A stretch of DNA of 64,000 bases, from assembly GCF_029784155.1 (NCBI RefSeq), contig NC_073692.1, forward strand, positions 322,149,906 through 322,213,905, read 5' to 3'. Of the stretch, positions 11,187 through 58,783 are shown in pieces (positions within the stretch are counted from its first letter, which is position 1; each line of letters opens with the position of its first letter). Under the pieces are notes generated by a model. That model did not search any database, was not told the origin of the DNA, and saw only the letters and a program-made list of their open reading frames with translations. The position numbers were made by a program, and so were the translations under genes. This DNA is from Uranotaenia lowii (lineage: Eukaryota > Arthropoda > Insecta > Diptera > Culicidae).

Positions 11187-11205
11187 ATTGGCGACGAAAT
11201 TGGGA
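11187..11205 (+). other. putative primer-binding site
   Basis: ATTGGCGACGAAATTGGGA starts one base after the 5-prime LTR, where the tRNA primer-binding site is expected. The TGGCGAC core is typical of Ty3/gypsy elements. I cannot name the tRNA. Confidence 0.55.
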
Positions 11206-11433
11206 TTTTATTCTAAGTGAAAAGGCTTTGATTGAGTGCTAGGAACGGGTATCCAATTAAATCAGGTGAAGGTAAGTGGAAATTTGGGAACAAATGGACA
11301 GAATTGAGAAAAATGTTCTGCTTTGTTGCCTAGCAGAGAACAAAAAGAGAGGTTATGTTTTGATAGGAAAATCTATCAAGATTCTAGAATATTTGCTGAA
11401 CGAGCAAAATTTCTTTTCAGAAAATAATCAAGA

Positions 11434-11559
11434 TTGGCGCAAGTAGCCTGACGATTGGCGCGAGTTGCCAGAATATCGGCGCGAGTAGCCGGAAGATTGG
11501 CACGAGTTGCCGGAAGATTGGCACGAGTTGCCGGAAGATAGGCGCAGGTAGCCTGGTGA
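11434..11559 (+). repeat. six 21-bp tandem units, each a small hairpin, in the gag leader
   Basis: Units start at 11434, 11455, 11476, 11497, 11518 and 11539. Each has the form xGGCx-loop-xGCCx, with CGAGT or a close variant in the loop. Bases closing the stem change together: T/A in unit 2, C/G in unit 3, A/T in unit 6. The innermost pair is G/T in unit 2 and A/T in units 4 and 5. The repeat lies between the primer-binding site and the gag start, where RNA packaging or translation signals are usual. The minus strand is open through the array, as expected for a period divisible by three. Confidence 0.8.
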
Positions 11560-11760
11560 TTTTTTTTAGTCAGGGCACGACTCGAATTTTCCGAAGCTTG
11601 AATGCGTAACTCAGATTGCTGCAGATTGCATAAACAACAACAAATAGAGTGACCAGCTGTACCAAATAAGAAAACAGTGTTGGTGGACATTTGGAGGTAA
11701 ATGTTATTTTTTTTTGTTTTGGTCCTTCAAGTATTTCTAGCACATATTCTTCTTATTAGG

Positions 11761-14700
11761 ATGGATTCTGGAAAAGCTTTTACGGGTTTCCCCCCGTTTG
11801 TTTTCAATGAAGTGCCAATGGCAGAACGCCGGGGAAAGTGGCACATTTGGAAGCGGGGATTCGAAATTTGGCTCAGAGCAGCGAAAATATTCGATGCTAC
11901 TGAAAAGAAGGATCAGCTGTTGGCTCATGGAGGTTTCGAGCTGCAGGAGGTGTTTTTCGGTATACCGGGCGCCGATGTTGCACATAGCGATGAAGTAAAC
12001 GCGTATGATGTGGCAATAGACAAATTGGACGAATATTTCGCACCTTTGCGTCACGAAGCCCACGAGCGGTATTTGTTTTGGGACATGAAGCCAGAACCTG
12101 AGGAATCTCTTGGGAACTTTTTGATGCGTACCCAAATGTATGCGGGTAAATGTAATTTCGGAAAATCGGCGGTAGAGAGCTCTGGTATTGCGGTGGTGGA
12201 CAAAATCCTTCAGTTTGTTCCATCACATTTGAGGGAAAAATTACTGCAGGAGAAAGAGTTAACCATCCAAGAAGTCATTCGCCAAGTTAATGCTTATGAG
12301 ACTACCCGGCTTGCAAGTGAGCAAATTAGTGGTCAAGCTGCAGCACAGTTGGCCACTCATCAGGTATTGAAGCCGACGGAGAATTTACAAGAGATCGATG
12401 CAGTTTGTAAATACTGTGCGGGGTCTCACCAACCTGATCAACAGTGTCCCGCATGGAACAAGACCTGCGGTAATTGCGGGAGGAGAGGCCACTATCGCAA
12501 AGCTTGTTTTAGCCGTACGTCAGTTACAAGAGGTTCCACATCCAGAATCAATTCCAACAATGTGATTCAACGCTTTGGGAAACGCAGATTTGTTCCCTCG
12601 AATGCAGGGCAATCGCAGTCGAAACGTTTCCATGCAAACCGCCAGGTAAATGCTATTGATGATGTGGACGAGCAGAGGGAAAATTTCGAGTTGGTTGACA
12701 TGGTTTCTACAACGAACGACAACGATGAGCTGATTTGGGCAAAGGTTGGAAATGTGTTGATCGAGATGCAAATAGATTCGGGCGTCCAGTCGAATATTAT
12801 CGACGATCGAACTTGGAGTTACATGCATCAGAATGGAGTAAAATTGATAGGTAGCTGTTCACATCCGGATAGGAAATTCAAAGCGTATGCTCAGACAGAT
12901 TGTCTGGCAGTGACGCTGATGCTTGACGCGGAGATCGTTATCACTGATGGTGGAAAGCAGCTAAAAACAATAGCCCGATTCTATGTCGTTAAAGATGGCC
13001 CGCAGCCACTTTTGGGGAAGAGGACAGCTAAAGAGTTGGGTGTCCTCAAGGTTGGACTTCCAAGCAAGCACGAGTCGAACCATCATTTGGACATTGTGCA
13101 GCGATTCCCTAGTATTCGGGGCATAAAGATCCACATACCCATGGATCATTCGGTTCTGCCAGTCGCGCAGCCTCTAAGGAGACTACCGTTTGCGACGTTG
13201 ACCCGAGTTGAAGAAAAATTGAATGAGTTACTCAATAAAGACATCATCGAAAAGGTTACAGGACCTAGCCGTTGGGTATCGCCAATGGTGGTTGTGGTCA
13301 AAGACAACGGAGACATCCGTTTGTGTTTGGACATGAGACAGTTGAATAAAGCAGTAATCCGCGAAACACATCCATTGCCCACAATAGAAGACATCCGGTG
13401 GAAACTTAACGGCGCGGTCTTCTTCACCCGCCTTGATATCAAGGATGCGTTTCACCAGCTCGAGTTAGATGAAGTGAGCAAACCGTTGACGACTTTCATT
13501 ACACACAAAGGTGAGTTATCTTTGATTATTCCTTATTTTATTTGATCGTCATTAATTACTAGCCTGAATCTGTTACTGATGATTTATATACTTGTTTAAG
13601 GCCTATTCCGATACAAACGTCTTTTGTTCGGAATTTCATGTGCTCCGGAAATTTTCCAGAAAACTATCGAGCAAATCCTTTCCGATTGTGAATGTTGCAC
13701 AAATTTTATTGATGACATTATCGTGTTCGGGAAAACTGAGCGTGAGCACGATGGAGCTCTTCAGCGGATCTTAAATAGATTCAAAGACTACGGAATCCTT
13801 TTAAATCAAGCAAAATGTGTTTTCAAGTTAAAGGAAATTGATTTCTTGGGGCACCATTTCAACGTAGCAGGGATGTCGCCGTCAAAAGACAAAATAGAAG
13901 CAATCCGTAACTGCCGTGCTCCAAATAACTGCGAGGAGGTCAGGAGTTTTCTCGGCCTCGTCAACTATGTAGGTTCTTTTATACCAGATTTGGCTACAGT
14001 ATCATTTCCGCTTCGGGAGCTTCTCAAGGATAAGGCGTCTTTCAAATGGGGCACCGACGAACAGCAGGCATTCGATCTTATTATCTCATACATAGGTAAT
14101 GCAGACAGTTTAGCACACTTCGATCCAAAATTGAAAACCCGTCTAGTAGCAGATGCTTCTCCCGTAGGGTTAGGGGCCGTTCTATTGCAATTCTTTGAAG
14201 GAGCACCGAGAGCTGTCGCTTACGCTAGTAAAAGCCTTACAGAAACTGAACGACGTTATGCCCAAACGGAGAAAGAAGCTCTTGCCCTTGTTTGGGGGGT
14301 GGAACGTTTCAGGATCTACCTTCTGGGAATACGTTTCGAGCTGGAGACAGATCATAAACCTCTTGAGGCTATATTTTCGAGAAACTCAAACCCCTGCCTC
14401 CGTATAGAACGTTGGGTATTACGCCTTCAAGCATTCAGTTATGTGGTGGTATATAGGAAAGGAAAATCGAATATTGCAGATTCTTTGTCTCGATTGAGTC
14501 GATCGAATACGGTTAGACCTTTTGATCCGGAGTCAGAAATGTATATACGTAGCGTCATAGAAACGGCAGCAGTCGATATCGATGAAGTGGAGGCAAAATC
14601 GGAATCCGATCTCGAGCTTAGTGAACTCCGAGAATGTTTGAATAGAGGCATTTGGAACTATACATCGAATTTAATCAAACCATACCACGCATTCAGGAAT

Positions 14701-17700
14701 GAGTTGGGCACCGTCGGGAAGCTTATTGTTAGAGGCTCTAAACTTGTCATCCCGAAAGAACTCAGACAACGCATGGTACAGTTGGGTCACGAAGGGCATC
14801 CAGGAAAAACTAAAATGCAACAACGCTTGAGGAGCACCTGTTGGTGGCCTGGAATGGATGAGTCAATTGCTAAAGCTGTTGATTATTGTGAAGGATGTAG
14901 AATGGTTGGTCATCCAGAACGCCCTGAGCCAATGCAACGTCGAAAATTACCCGAAGCACCGTGGATAGACCTCGCTATCGACTTCTTAGGACCTTTACCA
15001 TCAGGAGATTATCTTTTAGTAATTATCGATTATTTCAGTCGATATAAGGAGGTTGAGATCATGCGTAAAATTACAGCGGGAGAGACAGTTGAACGATTAG
15101 AGAAAATCTTTACCAGGTTGGGATATCCAAAAACACTTACGCTGGATAACGGACGGCAGTTTGTAAGTACTGAATTCGACAATTACTGCAAAGTAAGAGG
15201 CATCACAGTTAACAGAACAACGCCGTACTGGCCGCAAGAAAACGGTTTGGTTGAGCGCCAAAATCGTTCTCTGGTAAAGCGTTTAAAAATAAGCCAAGCA
15301 TTGAATAGAGATTGGAAACACGATTTGTTGACTTACCTTTCTATGTACTATTCTACGCCCCATAGTACGACTGGTAAAACTCCATCCGAACTCATGTACG
15401 GCAGAAATGTGAGAACGAAGATTCCAGCCTTAACCGACTTAAGCTTTGCGGTGCCGTGTACTGACTACAGAGATCGAGACCAACTAGCTAAACAGAAAGG
15501 GAAGGAACATGAGGATCGGCGTAGGCGTGCCAAGCTGTCTGAGTTAGTTGTTGGAGATAAGGTCTACATGAAAAACGTTCTTCCGGGAAATAAGCTCACT
15601 CCCACTTTTGATAACAAAGTCCTGACGGTCAAGTCCAAACAAGGGCCTAGAGTAACGGTACAGAACGATGAAACGGGTAAGCTGTACGAAAGGAATTCAA
15701 CTCATCTTAAAAAGATTTTAATTGATAACTCTCCAGCCAAAGGTATAGTAAAACATCCCGCATACTAAAAAACCATATCTCAAACAGTCTCTACGATACA
15801 ACTACGGTTTCAGAAATAGTGATTGTATCTGTAAACGTAGCTGTTCTTCTTAACTTTACTTCGCCAATGATAACAACGAAATATGAACGTTCATGTGAAC
15901 ACGTGCAATGGTATCTGAAAAAGTGATAGAATGATATGAACGATTTCCTTCAATTTTTCTTTAATCGTGAAACTGAACTCTAACCGTAAAACAAACCGTC
16001 CATCCCTTCTGTCATACTTGTCATACTCGCACGTCAAAATCAACGAAATGCCCGGTCAGAGATGCCAGTTGGTTTTGTACAAACTCAGTACACAATTTTG
16101 ACAATAATTCAATTTTTTCTTCTATCATTATACTTAACGAAGTTCAGCTCTTGATTTGGGCACATTTGAGGGAAATAATATAATAATAATAATAAATATA
16201 CGTATAAGTGCATAAAAGTTTATTTCGAGAAAAACGCTTTAAAGTTGTTGTGTTTGGCCATTTTGCATGCATATATTTTTCGAAAATTTGTTTTTAGCTC
16301 TCGATCGTAAAAGTATGTTAATAGAATAAAAAAAATTTGAAAAATTCACCTAATAGTTTGAAATACGAAGAAGGGGTCCCTTTTTTCATGGTAAATTTTT
16401 CCAGAACTATGAACTTCACTGTCGAAAACTATGAATTGGAAAGTGTATTCAAGGTTCCAAAAACCATGATTCGCATAGTTTCAACCACAACATTCACGGT
16501 TGCGTGAAAATGAAATTCATGATCTTTTCACAATGTTTTTCTATTCAGGTAATAATCCTTTTTATTTTCACAGTTCGATTCCTTTTATCCTTTTTTCTTT
16601 CTTTAAAAACTGTAAAACCAAGTGTTAAACTAAAAAATACATTTTAACATGCGGTCTCAGTGTATAACAACTATCACATCTTTATAGGAACGTAAATTCA
16701 TTGTGAATAATAATTTGACGTTCAATTGTGTCAAATAATATGCGAGAATATATAAAATAAAGAAAAATCAGTACTTTAATTGTATAAAACAAATCAAACA
16801 AACCAAACCTAACCATTATAAAAAGCTACCAAATTCAATACAAATCAAAGCATTTAAATACAACTTTTCAATTAAATATTTTTATCTCGAAGATTTGAAA
16901 TTAGGTGTAATAAAAAAAAATCAGTACAGTTGGCATCAGTGCTGAAAGTTGTCAGAGGAGCAAAAACTAAAATGGCGTTATATTTTTCTCTCGCGTTCGT
17001 TCAAACAATTTGTACGGAAATTTATCCGAATTCGCCGGAAACTGTTTCGCCAGCGGTTTTACTTCAACTTCCACTCGATCCGTACCGACAAATCGCGCGC
17101 TGCTTTCTTATGCAACTGCCATACAAAGAAGCAATTCATCGACGTCAGGAATGCAAGTCGAGTATGCAGCTAGTTTTTAAGTAGGTAAGTGAGCTGTGTT
17201 ATTTTTCAGGCTTTTGATCACCTTTTAGGGCATTTGCATTTGAAATCTATAAAAAGTGATTAATTTAAGTTTTTACATTGCAGTGCAGTGTATGAAGTTC
17301 CCGAATGCTGTCCACTCCCGGCCAATTTTCCGGAACCAAGTCGACCATTGCAAGAAAATATTTCTCAACAAGAGCTAGTTTGTGGTGCAGAATATTGGAA
17401 GAAACCTGCAGGATGTGGCATTTGCGGCAGCTGCCGGTATTACAAGGTAATGAACTGAAAAGTTTACAAACCAGTGAAATACAGAAAAAGTGTATTAACA
17501 TGAAAAATTTATGTGCAATGGTGTATCATTTTTTTTTTCCTTTGAAGTTGTCCCTGTTGTGGGACCGCTAGGGCCAGCGTTTATCAATATTTATAAGATG
17601 TATGAGTAAATTGTGATCAATAAATGCGAAAATCATGAGAATTCTAATAAATAAATAATAAAATCAAACAAAAATGGTTTCAAGAAAATATCCGAAAACC

Positions 17701-22100: not shown

Positions 22101-23782
22101 TCCCTGTACCTACGTTTGTTTTTCTGTCTCATTAATAATTCATTCAGTGAATGTTTTTACCACGGTCTGGTCGCAATCGAAGCGTAACACAACAAAACAG
22201 ACAGACCCCGCACAATTGATCGTCTTTCATTGGGGTGTATGTGTTTATATGAACACTTGACGATTACCGAAAAGAAGATCGATTTAAAATCCAGAGCAAC
22301 GGCAACTGGCGCGAAATGGTTTCATCCGATTGGAATGTTGCGCAATATGTGGGACATGATTGAAATTGACCATTGTTAAATAACTGACATATACCTTCTA
22401 TTATCTTTTCATTTACAGGCAAATGATCTCCCGCGTACCCTTAAGCTGTCCGGTCATGTAGGCTTCGATAGCATGCCGGATCAGCTGGTCAGCAAGAGCG
22501 TCCAGAATGGGTTCGTGTTCAATATCCTGTGCATTGGTGAGACGGGTTTGGGCAAGTCTACCCTGATGGATTCGTTGTTCAATACCAACTTCGAATCGCA
22601 ACCGAGTCCGCACACCTTACCTAATGTCAAGCTGAAGGCCCACACCTACGAGCTGCAGGAGAGCATGGTGCGCTTGAAGGTAAGTTTCAGGTTTGACTTG
22701 AATTTGAGAGATAACAATGACGATTCTATTTTCTTCTTTAGCTCACCATCTGCGACACGGTTGGTTACGGCGATCAAATTAATAAGGATGATTCGTTCAA
22801 GGCAGTGGTCGACTACATCGATCAGCAGTTTGAAACGTTCCTCCAGGAGGAACTGAAGATCAAGCGTTCGCTCTCGACTTACCACGACAGTCGAACCCAT
22901 ATTTGTTTGTATTTCATCTGTCCCACTGGCCACGGCTTGAAATCGTTGGATTTGGTGTGTATGAAAAAGTTGGACTCCAAAGTAAACATTATACCAATTA
23001 TTGCAAAAGCAGATACCATTTCAAAAACTGAACTGTCCAAGTTCAAAGCTAAAATCAACGATGAATTGCGCAACAATGGGGTGCAGATTTACGCGTTCCC
23101 GACCGACGATGAATCCGTTGCTGAAATTAACGCAACTATGAACTCGCATATACCGTTTGCCGTTGTAGGCAGTACTGATATGGTGCGTGTTGGAAACAAA
23201 ACGGTTCGTGCCAGACAGTACCCTTGGGGAACCGTTCAGGTAGAGAACGAAGCTCATTGCGATTTCGTCAAGCTGAGGGAGATGCTTATCCGCACCAATA
23301 TGGAGGATATGCGCGAGAAAACCCATACCAAACACTACGAACTGTACCGGCAAAAACGCCTGGAACAGATGGGTTTCACCGATGTGGACAGTGACAACAA
23401 ACCGGTGTCGTTCCAGCAAACATTTGAAGCCAAACGTAGCAACCACTTGGCTGAACTGCAAGCCAAAGAGGACGAAGTTCGTCAAATGTTTGTAGTCCGT
23501 GTCAAGGAGAAGGAAGCGGAACTGAAGGAAAGCGAAAAGGAGGTGAGATCTACATCTTTAAAAAATGTCTCATAATTTTCCTGTTATCAATCGATTTTTT
23601 CAATTTATTTACAGTTGCATGCCAAATTTGATAAGCTCAAGAAAGACCACGCCGAAGAGAAGCGCAGATTGGAAGAATCTCGCAAGAAGCTGGAGGAAGA
23701 GTTTGTCGAATTCAACCGACGGAAGTCGCAAATGGTCGCTTCTCACCACACTCTCACGCTGGGAAAAAGCAAAAAGAAATGA
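19126..23782 (+). CDS. Septin2: septin (Septin2 / SEPT6 group)
   Basis: Coding exons 19126-19155, 22419-22679, 22742-23542 and 23615-23782 join in phase 0 throughout and give 419 residues, the length I expect for the fly Septin2 type. The GTPase domain has the P-loop GETGLGKST at residues 50-58, DTVGYGD at 102-108 and AKAD at 185-188. The septin-unique element follows, then a C-terminal coiled coil rich in K and E (from about residue 330) ending LTLGKSKKK. Septins form hetero-oligomeric filaments at the plasma membrane and cleavage furrow and act in cytokinesis and cortical organisation. The ten-codon first exon ([10 protein letters not shown]) was chosen for its splice fit and similarity to known septin N-termini. 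All splice sites are GT-AG. No damage seen. Confidence 0.96.
19156..22418 (+). other. Septin2: 3.3-kb first intron of the septin gene
   Basis: This intron separates the ten-codon first exon from the rest. It is AT-rich and I recognise no coding sequence, RNA gene or complete mobile element in it. A long first intron is a common place for enhancers, but no specific site can be pointed out. Confidence 0.7.
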
Positions 23783-38500: not shown

Positions 38501-39912
38501 CCCAGACAATAAGTCACACAAACACAACCAATTTGCAAATCATAGCTTGTGCGGAATCGTGGGCCACATTTTAAGGGGTATCTTGGGCCACCTAGATTTT
38601 GGGGTTTTTGTACACATTCAGAACTTAAAATACGTTTTTCCTATCTAAAAAGTTTTCTCATGCAAAATAAAGAGTTTTGAAAAATATGTTGTCCATTTTC
38701 TCCAATGCTTTAGAGACGAACAAAAATGCTATATAAGGAATTTTGCCAAAACGTTCGCGAGTCAGGAATTAGGAACTATTGGATCATACACAACACTCAT
38801 TTTTATTTCTTCATATGAATTTTTTTTAAATAACTAAATGAATCATAAAATTTCAGCTATGGGTCAGCTCATAAACTTTGCACGTTTTTTTTTATCAATT
38901 TGGAAATGGTTGCCCACGTTTCTCCACGGTTTTTCAAAATCCTTAAAAAAATTCTATTTTAAAAACAGTCGGAACTCGGGAAATTCATGTAGGGTAGGTG
39001 TACCCTCCTCCGTCGTATCCCTCTTATTCGTCTTAATTCATGAATGCATGTTTTAGAGCCGAAAAATCACTTTCAACTTTAAATGGCTACTTCACATGAT
39101 AAACTCACGTCTGTGAATTTATTTTCTATCACAAATTTGTCACTTTTGAAATATTTGATTTTGAAATCTCGAAGTGAAATTAATTATTGGCACACTCCGC
39201 CATATTGAAAGACGAACTTAGTGATCCCCCCAACGTGTTTCTTTGTTTTAACGCTTAATGTCAATGCATATAACAATCAAAATCATCAATGCAATGTTTT
39301 AACGCTTAATGTCAATGCATATAACAATCAAAATCATCAAATTCAACAGAACAGTGTTTAAATAAAATTAGAAAAATAATTTCAAACTAATTTGAACTAT
39401 ATAAATTTGTCAATATTCGATTGAAATCGAATCGCTCGGCCCCCATAATTCGTCGTAATTTTGCGACAGTAATAGGAAACCGTTTTGCAAGAATTGGAAT
39501 TAGACCGGTTCATTTTTACTATTTTTTTTATTTCTAAGTAATCACAACACAATAAAGTAATTTTGAAGCTAGGAACTAGATGCGCTGGGAGATAAGTGCA
39601 AAAAGTCTTTTTATATTAATAAATGACTTGAATGTATTCAGCATTGCTTATAATGCATGGTTTTAAATGAACATAGAATTGATGGCTTTTTTAAGCTAAG
39701 TGGTTGGTGTTTTACGAATTATTTACTACCAGTACCGTGCATAATTTAATAGACGTTTGAGTGCACGAGAGAATATCTCCAACTTTACATATTTCTAACG
39801 TTCAACTTCAATGACATTGTTTCTTCATAATTTTATTATTTAATATTTGATTATGTTTGGTTCGATTATCTGATGTCACTAAACCTCTCTCAAGTATTTG
39901 AAACATTAGATA
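38501..39912. other. AT-rich intergenic DNA
   Basis: No gene. It contains the short tandem duplication listed separately and a GTGGGCCAC-type word near 38560 that recurs as TGGCCCA near 44580. Confidence 0.45.
39247..39340 (+). repeat. two tandem copies of a 50-bp unit
   Basis: The unit starting TTTTAACGCTTAATGTCA occurs at 39247 and 39297, with the first 44 bp identical. A local replication-slippage duplication. Confidence 0.85.
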
Positions 39913-47042: not shown

Positions 47043-47047
47043 GCCAC

Positions 47048-47396
47048 TGTAGGAAATGATAGTGCATGATAATACAAATTAGAATAACACAGATATAAGT
47101 CATAACAAGAATATAAACGCGTTCTTCTTCGTTACACATAATTCACATATCTTAATTAAAATTGCTGTTCATCACCAACTTAGACGAAAGTAATCACTCA
47201 AACATTACTAAATCAGTGGTAGAGTGTAACATCGGCTGAAGAGAAAAAGAGAGCGCGAGAGGTTTCGTTCTTCATACGATTGAGAAAAACCGAAGATTCA
47301 TTCGTATAACTAACGTTGTAAATAAATGTCGCGTTTTGCTCAGTTGAAAATATAAATGGTGTTTTTAAAGTGAAAATTTATACCAGGGTCACTACA
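47048..47396 (+). repeat. 5-prime LTR of the non-coding element
   Basis: 349 bp with TG...CA ends. It contains TATAAA near 47112 and AATAAA near 47320 as possible transcription signals, and one GCGAGAGG word at 47255 like the loop of the interior hairpins. Confidence 0.9.
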
Positions 47397-47653
47397 ATGG
47401 CGCAGATAGGTAAAGGACAATATATAGCTCCCTAAAGGTAAGTAGAGGGAATAAAATTTTGTATTCTGGTCAGTGTAAGACAAAAAGAAACATTGAGAAT
47501 AGTGAAAGTTAAAATTGAATTATGAAAGAAATCAAGATGGCGATGTTACAGTCGTCACACATTTCTAGAAAAGGTCTGTAAAAAAAAAAAATTATGGAGG
47601 TATTTTGCGTGAGGTTATACAAAATATAGAAGAGTTAAATATTATACAATTAT

Positions 47654-48163
47654 TCGGGCGAGAGGACTCGATATTTAGTTAAAGTTACCCTGCGAGAGGT
47701 CAGGATGCTGAGTTTCGATCTACATTAAAAAAAATAAATAAATAAATAATAAATCGAGCGAGAGGTCTCGATCTGCATTGTTAAAGTCGAGCGAGAGGAC
47801 TCGGTCTTTAAAAAAGTTGCCCTGCGAGAGGTCAGGAATGCGAACTAAATAAAAAAAAAATCGAGCGAGAGGTCTCGATCTGCAATTTTGAAGTCGAGCG
47901 AGAGGACTCGTTCTTTGAAAAGTTATCCTGCGAGAGGTCAGGATACTGAAATGCGAAAAAAAAAAAGAAAAATCGAGCGAGAGGTCTCGATCCGCATTAT
48001 TGAAGTCGAGCGAGAGGACTCGGTCTTTGAAAAGCTATCCTACGAGAGGTCAGGATACTAAAATGCTATTTAAACGGAAAAAATCGAGCGAGAGTTCTCG
48101 ATGTTCATCAGAAGTCGAGCGAGAGGACTCGATCTTTGAAAACATACCCTGTGAGAGGTCAGG
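47654..48163 (+). repeat. array of 14 hairpins with a common CGAGAGGW loop
   Basis: The array has a partial first unit and four complete units of about 110 bp. Each full unit has three stem-loops: type A, stem ATCGAG/CTCGAT with loop CGAGAGGT (47753, 47860, 47972, 48083); type B, stem CGAG/CTCG with loop CGAGAGGA (47788, 47895, 48007, 48115); type C, stem CCTG/CAGG, extended to ATCCTG/CAGGAT in places, with loop CGAGAGGT (47821, 47925, 48037, 48148). The first unit adds a B-like and a C copy (47654, 47689). A-rich spacers separate units. The same loop on unlike but complementary stems indicates selection on RNA or single-strand structure. Position after the primer site suggests a leader role. 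Confidence 0.85.
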
Positions 48164-48192
48164 ATACTGCACTGCAATCTATATTTAAAAAA

Positions 48193-51100
48193 AAAGGCTA
48201 TTCTGCGGAAGTGCTGGAGTAATGTACTATGATCTAATTCCGGTCGAGCAAGGGTCTAGTTTTTACCGAAGGAATCAATGAAGATGATCGATGGGTGATT
48301 GACAGAAGTATGGATGTGTCTGGATATGTTGCTAGAAATTCACACCTTCATAAATTGATTTCAACTAGTTCAGTCTATCCACCAAAAAAAAAAAAAAAAA
48401 TTGGAAATTAAACAGATATCTGATTTAGAGTATTTTGTTTTCTTAAAATAAATGTTTGAACCTGAAACATAATCTTAATCATAGTTTGAAACAGGAGTTC
48501 AATATTGAAGATTGTACGGTTGATGTTAGTGTATTTATATGATTGTAGAGTCGGAAATGGAATCGATTCTTGTTGTGATATTGGAAACCTTGGTCTAAGT
48601 ATGGAGAGGCAACTGTCTATCCAGTTTTCTTTTAAAAACAAAAGTTACTCTTGAGTCAGCAATCTAAATCTGAACTCAAGTTTTTTTTTTATCTAGAATT
48701 TAAGGTAAAAGAAAGAAAAATAATAAAAATCTATTATTCATTATTTTCTTGAATTCTTCAAGGATGTGAACACATTGAACTGCAAACCAAGGTAAGGGTC
48801 GTTTTCAAATCTGTATAGGGTGGAAAGGTATAAATGTGCATTTCCTTGAATCATAGTCTGGATCCAGAGTTTTCGTAATCTGAACTAGAGATTTGGTTCT
48901 GAATACAAGGTTGGAATCCGAGAGTCTTCCTATATCTCAAATCGAACATGGAAGTTCGATAGCAAAGTTGGCAATTCATGAGAGATCTGGGTTACCTTTG
49001 GTGAGTGAGAAAATAACAAGGACAGATGTGCAATTCATAAGATTCATATGAATTGAAATTGATTGATTTGAATAGTTGAAACTTCGATCACCAATCCTTG
49101 ATAAAACAGTTTTGATATGAACAAAAAGCAAAAAAAAAAAAACTGCTGGTAAAGTTTCGGAGTCTTGCTGTTAAATACCATTTATAATCCATGAACTTTA
49201 AAAAAAAAGATGCTTTCTGCTTGTATTACTTGTAGAATTTAAGAATTTATACTTGGGAAATTCCAAAGCAATGAGATTTGTGATTTTTTCGCTTGACCTT
49301 GCATGAGAAAGTAAAACGGCTTATGCGATATAATTACTTACATAGTGTGTTTGACAACTTATATTGACTTAAAAATGATTGATTGTAATCAAGTATGCCT
49401 TTTAAGGAGGATGTATTAGATTTAGACAAGGAATAAGACTTAACTTAAATATATTAAAATTTACACCACGATAAATCAACATTACTGACAAAGGTTCATG
49501 ATAAGTATACAATGTGCGATTACTCTGAAATTTGATTTTTAAGTCTTGAAACTGAAATTCGAAGCAATAGTCGGTTGTAATAGCTAAATCCTGATCGCTT
49601 ATAAGATATCTAAATAAAAGTTCTTGCTTAAAAAAAAAAAACACCTTATAAGTTACATATGACATACATTGTTCAATTTTCTGGTATGAATCTGGGTTTG
49701 AGTACAGGTGTCTTAAATATGAATTTGTACTATGAGTCTCATATTAAACTGAACTTTCATTATGATTCTAAAGCGAAATTAAGATCAGTGATAAATAAGT
49801 CTTTTAAATTCGATTTAGAGATGCAGAGAAGTAAAACTTACTTTCGGATAGCATTCTGAAACTAAGATTTCTAAGCTGGATTTGAAGTTTAATTTTGTAT
49901 TCTGAGTACAAGTCTGAATTTAAAAAAACCCTACTAAATAGGTATAATTGTAACTTAAGTTATGCAAGACAAATAAGAAAGCGGTAGAGACGACCTTGTT
50001 GTTGGAAGTTTGGATGTAGAGAATCATCTTTAATATATTTTACGAGGTTTAGTTTTGATTTTGTGCTCACCCTGATCAAGGTAGTGTAATGACTAATATG
50101 GTAAACAGGCTCATGATTCTGATGTGTACTAAAGCAAGACTTATCTATCTATCCTTACATTTATTTTAGTACTGTCAGCGAAAGTCTTGTACAATGCTAT
50201 TTTTCAAAAAACCTATAGATGCGATATAACAAAAACTTAAGGAATCATGAAGCAATAGCACACGTAATTTGTTTGTTTTCCTAAAATAACCTTTTTCATC
50301 GCTTTTTCTGCAACGAGAGAGTGAAACAGCCAGCTTAAGTGATAAAATAATTTACAGAAAATGTTTGTCAACTAAAACTTCTCATAAAATTATTGGTTTA
50401 GTACACACTACGAAAAAAAAGTGTTTCACGAGCGAATGCCTTTAGGCGAAAGCATGATGTTTTGTGTTATGATAAATGAGATGCAACAAAGCATCAGTAC
50501 AGTATTATTTTATCCTATTCCAAGAATTTCGCTTATTTAAGGGTGTTGTAGAACGAAGTCCTTTGTTTTAAAACAGTTTTTTAGTGGTTGAGCGAGCTGT
50601 ACTTGTGGTTCCAGGTGGATCACGTTGGATGCATTCACTGCAATTGCAAGGTTGTGCATTGGCTTGCTAGATAAAAAGGGGACTGATCCTCGTAAATCGT
50701 GTCTGGAAGGAAGTGTTATTTGTCGCTGATACTTTTGTGGTAGTTATTTGGTGCTGCCTCAGTGAAAGGGTTCGAATTTTGCACCAAACCTAAAAAAAAA
50801 GTAGGAATAGCGAACAATTAAAAATAAAACTAACCTGTCCAAAGGGATGAATCATCCTGGATAAAAGAATAACAACGACTAACCTGTGACGAAAACATTG
50901 TCAATGTTTCTAAGGCTTATTGCTTATTGAAGAGCTAGTGGTCCTTTCGGTAAGGTGTTTCCAATGCAGGTTTAGAATCGTTTCGGAACAGTTTCGGTTT
51001 GCAGCTGCAATCGATTTTGTTTTTGATTGAAAAACAAAAACAACCAATGATTCCTTGTTTACAATAAATACACACTTAAGATAGAAACATAAATTTGGGT

Positions 51101-51672
51101 GTTATGTGTTACAAGTGGAAGTGATAACGTCAGTGAAAATTTGAGATTTCGACAAATAAAACCGTACTACATATTTACGTAACCTAGTGATATGAAAAAT
51201 AAATAAGAAACCAGCGCATGACATCATTTCGCTTGTAAAAGTGTTGCTAGTCGAACCGGTGCGAAAGTTCTTTTAAATGGAACAAACACGATAGTCTTCG
51301 GCATTGAAAATTAATAATAATAATAATAATAATTATGATTTTTAGAAAGTGCTTTTCGATTATTTTTGTATTCATGTGAGAAGGGTAAGGTAATACAATT
51401 CAAGCTTTCAGCTGCCCTGAGACAAATTATTATTACTAATTTTTATTAAAGACCTTTTATTGTCATTCGGGTCAAGTCCGGAGACAAATGATTTAATCAA
51501 ATATTTTTCATGGTTGTTGAATCTTCAAAATCTGGTTGTTAGATCGAGATTATAATTTACTAATGTTTTTCTGATGCAGAGTTTTAATGAAAGTGTTAGC
51601 TCCTTAAGCTGAAAATCGATATTGGTATTGGTTCATATTTTATTGAATATCAGAATTTACTGATTTACTGTA
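48193..51672 (+). other. interior of the non-coding LTR element
   Basis: AT-rich, without a frame over 90 codons that looks like protein. Words such as CTGAATT and GAAATTTGAATC recur loosely. No motif was recognised. Confidence 0.6.
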
Positions 51673-51686
51673 CAGAAAGGGGGTAA

Positions 51687-52035
51687 TGTAGGAAATGATA
51701 GTGCATAATAATACAAATTAGAATAACACAGATATAAGTCATAACAAGAATATAAACGCGTTCTTCTTCGTTACACATAATTCACATATCTTAATTAAAA
51801 TTGCTGTTCATCACCAACTTAGACGAAAGTAATCACTCAAACATTACTAAATCAGTGGTAGAGTGTAACATCGGCTGAAGAGAAAAAGAGAGCGCGAGAG
51901 GTTTCGTTCTTCATACGATTGAGAAAAACCGAAGATTCATTCGTATAACTAACGTTGTAAATAAATGTCGCGTTTTGCTCAGTTGAAAATATAAATGGTG
52001 TTTTTAAAGTGAAAATTTATACCAGGGTCACTACA
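51687..52035 (+). repeat. 3-prime LTR of the non-coding element
   Basis: The same 349 bp as 47048-47396 with one difference seen, followed by the target duplicate GCCAC. Confidence 0.9.
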
Positions 52036-52040
52036 GCCAC

Positions 52041-58036: not shown

Positions 58037-58783
58037 TACACTGTAGAGAATATTGGAGGTTTTAAAGAATATTGATTATACTATAATTCAAATGATTAAA
58101 ATTATTATATACATAAATTATAATAAAGTATAAGTAGAGAATATTGTCAATTACATAAAAAATAAATAAATAAGGCAGAATACAATAATGCGAATTGTTG
58201 TGGTATGATTGTAATTAAAGTAGTTGTATAGTTTCAAATAATAAACTTATTCCGGCTTATTTTGTATTACCGTGTTTCGAGATTCCGTTCGGAGATGGAT
58301 ATGCCTGTAGAGAATATTGGAGGTTTTAAAGAATATTGATTATACTATAATTCAAATGATTAAAATTATTATATACATAAATTATAATAAAGTATAAGTA
58401 GAGAATATTGTCAATTACATAAAAAATAAATAAATAAGGCAGAATACAATAATGCGAATTGTTGTGGTATGATTGTAATTAAAGTAGTTGTATAGTTTCA
58501 AATAATAAACTTATTCCGGCTTATTTTGTATTACCGTGTTTCGAGATTCCGTTCGGAGATGGATATGCCGATTCCAGAAAAGAGAGACTCTCTTATTCCT
58601 TCGGTTGATCGACTGGAGAAAACGAGAATCATCCCCATACTCGATGAAAAAACAATCTCATGCATTCAGTTGATAGAGAGAGCTTAAAAGGGATACATGT
58701 GTTTTATGCGTAGTTTGTGTAAAGGAAGAGACGATTTGTGTTTGAGTTCATCCGAAAAAGGATCGATCAGTCACGACATACAC
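58037..58783 (+). mobile_element. solo LTR with internal tandem duplication (58042-58778)
   Basis: The sequence begins TGTAGAGAATATTGG and ends GTCACGACA, flanked by TACAC on both sides (58037-58041 and 58779-58783). No internal region or second LTR is present, as expected after LTR-LTR recombination. Its first 264 bp are duplicated in tandem (58042-58305 and 58306-58569), with no difference seen. AATAAA words near 58240 and 58504 are candidate polyadenylation signals. Confidence 0.8.

Follow-up and report, generated by a model that had tools for sequence, protein, structure and literature searches.

A hairpin array in the leaders of gene-less LTR elements of Uranotaenia lowii as a candidate Gag-recognition signal

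Non-autonomous LTR elements that carry tandem repeats between their LTRs and have no master copy were described from Culex quinquefasciatus under the name cqUNK; in Table 2 of that account the primer site is of the tRNA-Ser type in 11 of 38 elements and the target-site duplication measures 5 bp in 26 of 38 (PMC3286476, consulted in part). The same source places in the Mag lineage the elements cqgypsy_24, 25 and 66, which have tandem repeats in the 5' UTR and 5-bp duplications, with primer sites for tRNA-Ser (cqgypsy_24 and 66) or tRNA-Arg (cqgypsy_25). In its tables 1 and 2, cqgypsy_66 (Mag, coding) and the gene-less cqUNK_42 agree in supercontig, length, LTR and duplication, and the repeats at 691-1175 are about where the U. 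lowii arrays sit. Judging from the consulted part of PMC3286476, the cqUNK elements (2012) are the closest described relatives of the gene-less array elements reported here. Trans-packaging is represented by the BARE1/BARE2 system of barley, in which a spliced subgenomic RNA is dedicated to Gag and a parasite that lacks Gag is packaged in trans (PMC3735527, consulted in part).

The window, by which we mean the whole 64,000-nucleotide stretch of U. lowii DNA analysed here, contains on its forward strand an LTR element (47048-52035) whose youth, claimed in a preliminary description of this DNA, is borne out by 99.7% identity between its LTRs and by GCCAC flanking both ends. Self-blastn places the 349-bp 5' LTR at 47048..47396 and the 3' LTR at 51687..52035; the sequence as read gives the left and right copies of the duplication (47043..47047 and 52036..52040), the primer-binding site ATGGCGCAGATA (47397..47408), which we take to be of the tRNA-Ser type, and the polypurine tract ACAGAAAGGGGGTAA (51672..51686). 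A splice-donor-like AAG/GTAAGT lies at 47438..47443. The interior beyond the array (48169..51671) is without genes, as had also been proposed: sense ORFs of the interior do not exceed 89 aa, two antisense ORFs there measure 104 and 113 aa, and comparison with the gag/pol pieces of the coding clade described below yielded no similarity. With its LTR pair, primer site, polypurine tract, duplication and length of several kb, the element has the attributes of large gene-less (LARD-like) retrotransposons. Among 21 LTR matches listed genome-wide, six are near-identical and form three elements, a lower bound for the family; one of the three is internally shortened, yet retains five exact loops. Loss of the stem pairing in copies that still move, or absence of the array from young copies, would have spoken against the preliminary description, and neither was seen: all three near-identical copies retain the array, with most of its pairings. 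That gene-less copies have near-identical LTRs would imply mobilisation in trans by a putative partner. Each LTR also holds one copy of GCGAGAGG (47255 and 51894) without an in-register stem, with a covariance model score of 16.2 bits.

A pattern related to the polypurine tract plus LTR start was found at 22 places genome-wide, 11 of which (L041-L051) lie outside the arrays already retrieved and represent several families of LTR 3' ends. The 1.3 kb adjoining the 3' LTR at each of these 11 places contains no large ORF (the longest sense ORF has 142 aa), and a 5' leader, sought twice from the polypurine-LTR-start places, was not found.

The array itself occupies 47650..48168 of the forward strand. 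Fourteen stem-loops had been announced at 47654-48163 and all 14 are present, with the loop CGAGAGGW on the three kinds of stem originally given; re-reading also recovered the A/C stem mismatch, in the hairpin with its loop at 48042, and the two one-base loop changes, at 48088 and 48151. The tandem unit is 112 bp long and repeated 3.9 times. A covariance model recovers 14 of 14 hairpins (E 4.7e-10 to 7.5e-4), seven of which had been in its training set and seven of which it had not seen. If a single mismatch is allowed, the 64-kb window contains 32 copies of GCGAGAGG, as compared with 15.4 expected (maximum of 26 in 100 shuffles). A search of the window against Rfam gave no match at the gathering cut-off and, below it, five weaker matches in the window element (E up to 5), none of them on the array. 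The phage records searched gave no match, and in IMG/VR 11 contigs had a single pattern match each, with no arrays.

On the sense strand, folding of the whole 541-nt array gives an energy that does not beat shuffles (z -0.44), and the antisense strand folds relatively better (z -1.86); whole-array stability was therefore dropped as an argument, and the evidence for structure is covariation across copies, not bulk stability. When hairpins were folded singly, nine of ten formed a pair between the C of the loop and its second G, leaving a GAGAG loop and one bulged base, with energies that beat shuffles by z 1.3 to 3.3; the tenth folds differently. The whole-array folds contain competing long-range pairs, and the near-palindromic arms would be able to pair between molecules, both of which would suit a role in RNA dimerisation or compaction, by pairing of arms with arms or loops with loops, in place of protein binding. 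We nevertheless regard such a role as improbable, given that the invariant loop is not self-complementary and that arm pairing by itself would not fix the sequence of the loop.

The array is not peculiar to the window family. TCGAGCGAGAGGWCTCG occurs 89 times, in 20 clusters, in the 1.08-Gb genome (reversed control 0), and pairs of GCGAGAGGWC loops spaced 10-40 nt apart number 459 genome-wide (control 0). We read 33 arrays, namely all 20 TCGAGCGAGAGGWCTCG clusters, that of the window among them, and all 13 further chromosome-1 clusters among the loop-pair matches listed; those listed out of the 459 are from chromosome 1 and, for one place, chromosome 2, so that most C2 and C3 places with other stem kinds fall outside these 33, and the use of the canonical loop to find loci biases the sample. 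Each of the 33 arrays has 4-29 exact loops lying within 150 nt of another, the weakest being L018, which is poorly paired. Stem kinds include TCGAG/CTCGA, TCAAG/CTTGA, CTGAG/CTCAG, CCTG/CAGG and ACTTG/CAAGT, and further TTGTG/CACAA, TCGTG/CACGA, TCATG/CATGG, TCTAG/CTAGA and GGAG/CTCC; many of the chromosome-1 arrays switch between two kinds at a spacing of roughly 28 nt. Among the 366 exact loops with full flanks, 68 belong to hairpins (TCTTG with CTCGA or CTTGA) that have two mismatches inside the stem, and this class usually has an outer GTATC/GATAC-like stem.

The 128 distinct arm pairs almost always have G-C as the innermost pair, and beyond it the positions swap freely (at stem offset 2, A-T in 59 and T-A in 45). 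A covariation alignment was made of 90 of these 128 distinct hairpins, drawn from the 33 arrays. Standard pairs fill 76% of its pair cells, a share that is 57% after shuffling and no more than 41% under sliding out of register; changes on both sides number 144 versus 66, and further pair types 26 versus 21, values reached by 0, 0 and 3 of 500 shuffles, respectively, in a control that leaves the relatedness of the copies in place. The number of pairs with any both-side change (6) did not exceed that in shuffles (6.2). The covariation supports selection on RNA structure, as the preliminary description had argued, and a conserved RNA structure in the full-length leader, which a packaging signal should have, is thus present, with bulk folding no better than shuffles.

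The loop is more conserved than the spacers in four of five array comparisons and equally so in the fifth. Single loop changes in 23 loci number 7, 8, 8, 7, 5, 5 and 6 for positions 1-7, counts that include copies in related elements; selection on a GNRA motif only is unsupported, since the changes fall on all seven positions. Of the 366 exact loops, 232 have T and 132 have A as their eighth base. The loop with A, CGAGAGGA (window 47659 and others), matches the tetraloop stretch of the rRNA motif known as the sarcin-ricin loop (large subunit), the flanks of which are missing from the array. The match is probably due to chance: the prevalence of T at the eighth base and the lack of an Rfam match on the array both speak against mimicry. 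That the array decoys a ribotoxin has, in our estimation, an almost negligible probability, even with eight bases in common and with ribosome-inactivating protein genes reported from mosquitoes (PMC5431988, consulted in part).

An LTR pair was detected for 12 elements, 2.2-8.6 kb long. Sense ORFs in their interiors do not exceed 109 aa, bar one of 178 aa that has no Pfam match, and antisense ORFs reach up to 178 aa. By our reading of the blastn table, and among the matches listed, 20 loci sort into about ten groups, within which leaders and interiors are 65-99% alike and between which likeness is mainly confined to the array and the LTR end. None of the 20 gene-less 10-kb loci has similarity to the gag/pol pieces of the coding clade (E 0.01). 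In the interiors of the 12 LTR-paired elements CGAGAGG is found 147 times in sense and never in antisense orientation. Such a strict orientation relative to the transcript would be unexpected of protein-binding sites at the DNA level, as would arms that vary while their pairing is kept, in place of the fixed sequence of an insulator. The array does share leader position and multiplicity with the Su(Hw) insulator of gypsy, and enhancers or insulators have been proposed for Culex elements (PMC3286476, consulted in part), and still we hold a DNA-level function to be very improbable. That the array is an ordinary tandem repeat without function, multiplied through gene conversion and retrotransposition, appears less credible again: units within one element are indeed mutual copies, and tandem repeats are common in the gene-less Culex elements (PMC3286476, consulted in part), but such multiplication would hardly leave about ten stem kinds with matched arms around one loop, or an array at the same place in coding relatives.

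These relatives were reached through the 13 chromosome-1 arrays, which we probed 1.5-3 kb downstream by tblastn with the gypsy frames of the window, a distant query. One of the 13 is followed by sense gypsy pol, and the other 12 had no match with that query; reverse-transcriptase similarity of unassigned type lies downstream of another of the 13 arrays (L063). LTR-element context was examined for one of the 13. The coding element, read in separate pieces, is 7.1 kb long and flanked by TCCTT duplications; over 337 bp its two LTR copies show 100% identity. It shares the LTR start TGTAGGAAATGA with the window element, and its primer site, ATGGCGCAGATC, is of the same type. Nine exact loops lie between the primer site and gag; the gag ORF is followed by reverse transcriptase, RNaseH and integrase, the order typical of Ty3/gypsy. 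Its Gag has two CX2CX4HX4C zinc knuckles and no Pfam match. All 33 Gag relatives bearing a species name come from culicine mosquitoes, many relatives bearing none, and relatives of the polymerase piece extend to Anopheles and a sand fly. Primer-site type, 5-bp duplication and the K02A2.6-like names of relatives would fit, without proving, membership of the Mag lineage. The LTR and leader start of the coding element (L068) had no blastn match in the 20 gene-less 10-kb loci at E<1e-4, and comparison of LTR sequences tied none of the gene-less families to one coding partner.

A gag search of the genome listed 99 places, about 20 of them on chromosome 1, where only the coding element adjoins a listed loop-pair array. 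We read the leaders of six of the 99 in addition to that of the coding element. All six have a repeat array upstream of gag, and five have the CGAGAG loop. Leaders of gag relatives at 91, 50 and 48% identity contain 7, 7 and 5 exact CGAGAGG, with the loop CGAGAGGW, and are found strongly by the covariance model. The leaders at 45 and 44% identity lack CGAGAGG and have 4 and 7 copies of CGAGAG, most of which end in TT or AT, or are shorter, and are enclosed by CAGAG/CTCTG-like arms; one or more of the seven copies in the 44% relative do not form a hairpin. The model finds these leaders weakly (best E 0.007 and 0.03). The 43% relative (L076 1-640) has 13 units with GGTTC/GAACC arms that replace the CGAGAG loop, and its leader gives no match to the model. 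The loop motif, whose presence in autonomous LTR elements had been suggested as a check, is thus found in a coding Ty3/gypsy element and five further gag leaders. Of the recognition by foreign Gag or reverse transcriptase envisaged in the preliminary description, the Gag part gains circumstantial support from these leaders, and nothing points to reverse transcriptase. Loop changes among Gag relatives would favour Gag as the reader of the loop, a link drawn from seven coding elements by gag identities alone, among which the 44 and 43% relatives differ in their arrays despite near-equal identity.

The position of the array in the transcript bears on the same question. At the place of the donor-like site in the window element, 27-41 nt after the primer-site ATG, GTAAGT is present in 17 of 18 elements (about 0.02 expected per element), the eighteenth having GTAGGT; these 18 (15 gene-less and three coding) are the elements whose primer site matched ACAATGGCGCAG, those without an exact match being uncounted, and they include several close copies and are thus not independent. 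The eighteenth element (L075) owns an NCBI gene model, P0026, the first 60 residues of which are found letter for letter in the genome. Residues 1-60 are encoded by L075 nt 39-217 or 218, a stretch that includes the primer site (187), and the model takes up again with residues 61-64 (VTKK) after nt 885; four CGAGAG at nt 335-497 fall in the stretch that the model skips. We viewed ten of 14 NCBI-named Gag models, as proteins alone for those other than P0026. In seven, which come from Aedes albopictus, Armigeres and Malaya, the start is an NGA- or MAQ-bearing peptide, as in-frame reading of the primer site would give, and P0003 and P0031 have no such start. As the array is inside an intron of a predicted gene model, spliced gag mRNA should lose it and full-length RNA keep it; absence from spliced mRNA would fit this one annotated model and the recurrent GTAAGT.

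Packaging signals are missing from spliced mRNA in many but not all retroviruses. The signal of Rous sarcoma virus, for example, lies upstream of the donor and is present in spliced RNA too (PMC5035971, consulted in part). A multicopy array downstream of a donor, and inside an intron in one gene model, is also what might be expected if a host protein on the hairpins controlled export or splicing and let full-length RNA, intron included, evade splicing or exit the nucleus, much as the constitutive transport elements of some retroviruses do; the gene-less RNA would need such an element as well. One fixed host protein, however, predicts a fixed loop, and the loop drifts and is replaced in one coding relative, albeit in a small sample; we rank this explanation as the best rival, while holding it to be unlikely.

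We consider it probable, with room for doubt, that the array is a multivalent, packaging-type Gag-recognition signal, present only in RNA that has not been spliced and preserved by gene-less parasites. The structure and place of the array are well supported; Gag binding, packaging, splicing in living cells and trans use by gene-less elements we infer from sequence. Gag, most simply via its two zinc knuckles, would bind the G-rich loops; splicing after the leader donor would remove the array from gag mRNA, unspliced RNA would retain it, and the Gag-bound unspliced RNA would be packaged and reverse transcribed. Gene-less elements could then persist by keeping the array in addition to the LTR ends, the primer site, the donor and the polypurine tract. 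More broadly, and only tentatively, one culicine Ty3/gypsy Gag clade may place a multivalent hairpin code in a leader intron whose preceding exon is read across the tRNA primer site. Splicing would then part the transcripts to be translated from those to be packaged, the loop would act as a password changing with the Gag lineage, and many gene-less elements would keep little beyond that password and their replication ends. A hairpin conserved over about ten gene-less groups and Gag-coding relatives bears on how gene-less LTR elements borrow the machinery of another element and on which RNA feature a Ty3/gypsy Gag reads, and it offers for both a specific candidate that lends itself to testing. 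Lying behind a splice donor, it would provide a simple means of separating RNA for translation from RNA for copying.

Elsewhere in the window, Ty3/gypsy gag-pol-like frames (11188-15768) have the same layout with another repeat: a different primer-site-like stretch, TTGGCGACGAAATTGGG, at 11188, AAG/GTAAGT at 11272, 21-bp repeats (5.9 copies) with GGC/GCC arms at 11430-11553, and an acceptor-like TTCTTATTAG ahead of the ATG at 11761. No LTR pair was found around these frames between 9500 and 17500. The window also contains a septin-domain frame (22742-23572), a perfect 264-bp tandem duplication (58041-58569) and a perfect 51-bp duplication (39244-39340).

The Su(Hw) insulator of gypsy consists of DNA sites, and the array departs from it in that pairing is kept while the arms change. 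Each is a repeat array within an LTR element's 5' leader (PMC3286476, consulted in part). Among the listed titles and abstract beginnings of open-access papers, none described the combination found here. The cqUNK elements are, like ours, gene-less LTR elements with internal tandem repeats, and the Mag cqgypsy elements likewise resemble the array elements in their 5' UTR repeats, 5-bp duplications and, for cqgypsy_24 and 66, tRNA-Ser primer sites, both comparisons being by description (PMC3286476, consulted in part). The words "hairpin", "stem" and "conserved motif" are absent from the text of PMC3286476, and in the part consulted the account of cqUNK has neither a coding partner bearing the same repeat nor an intron position. 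A hairpin signal might account for the tandem repeats described there in gene-less mosquito LTR elements (2012, PMC3286476). Retroviral packaging signals, to which nucleocapsid binds, are alike in combining a structured leader RNA, Cys-His boxes in Gag and an unspliced RNA as genome, and the array elements differ from them in having many near-identical hairpins and, according to the gene model, a gag expressed from spliced RNA (PMC5035971, consulted in part). BARE is a plant system for which the consulted part of PMC3735527 names no repeated hairpin tag, and the U. lowii elements lack any genes; its spliced Gag RNA and trans-packaged parasite are nonetheless what the model proposed here would entail.
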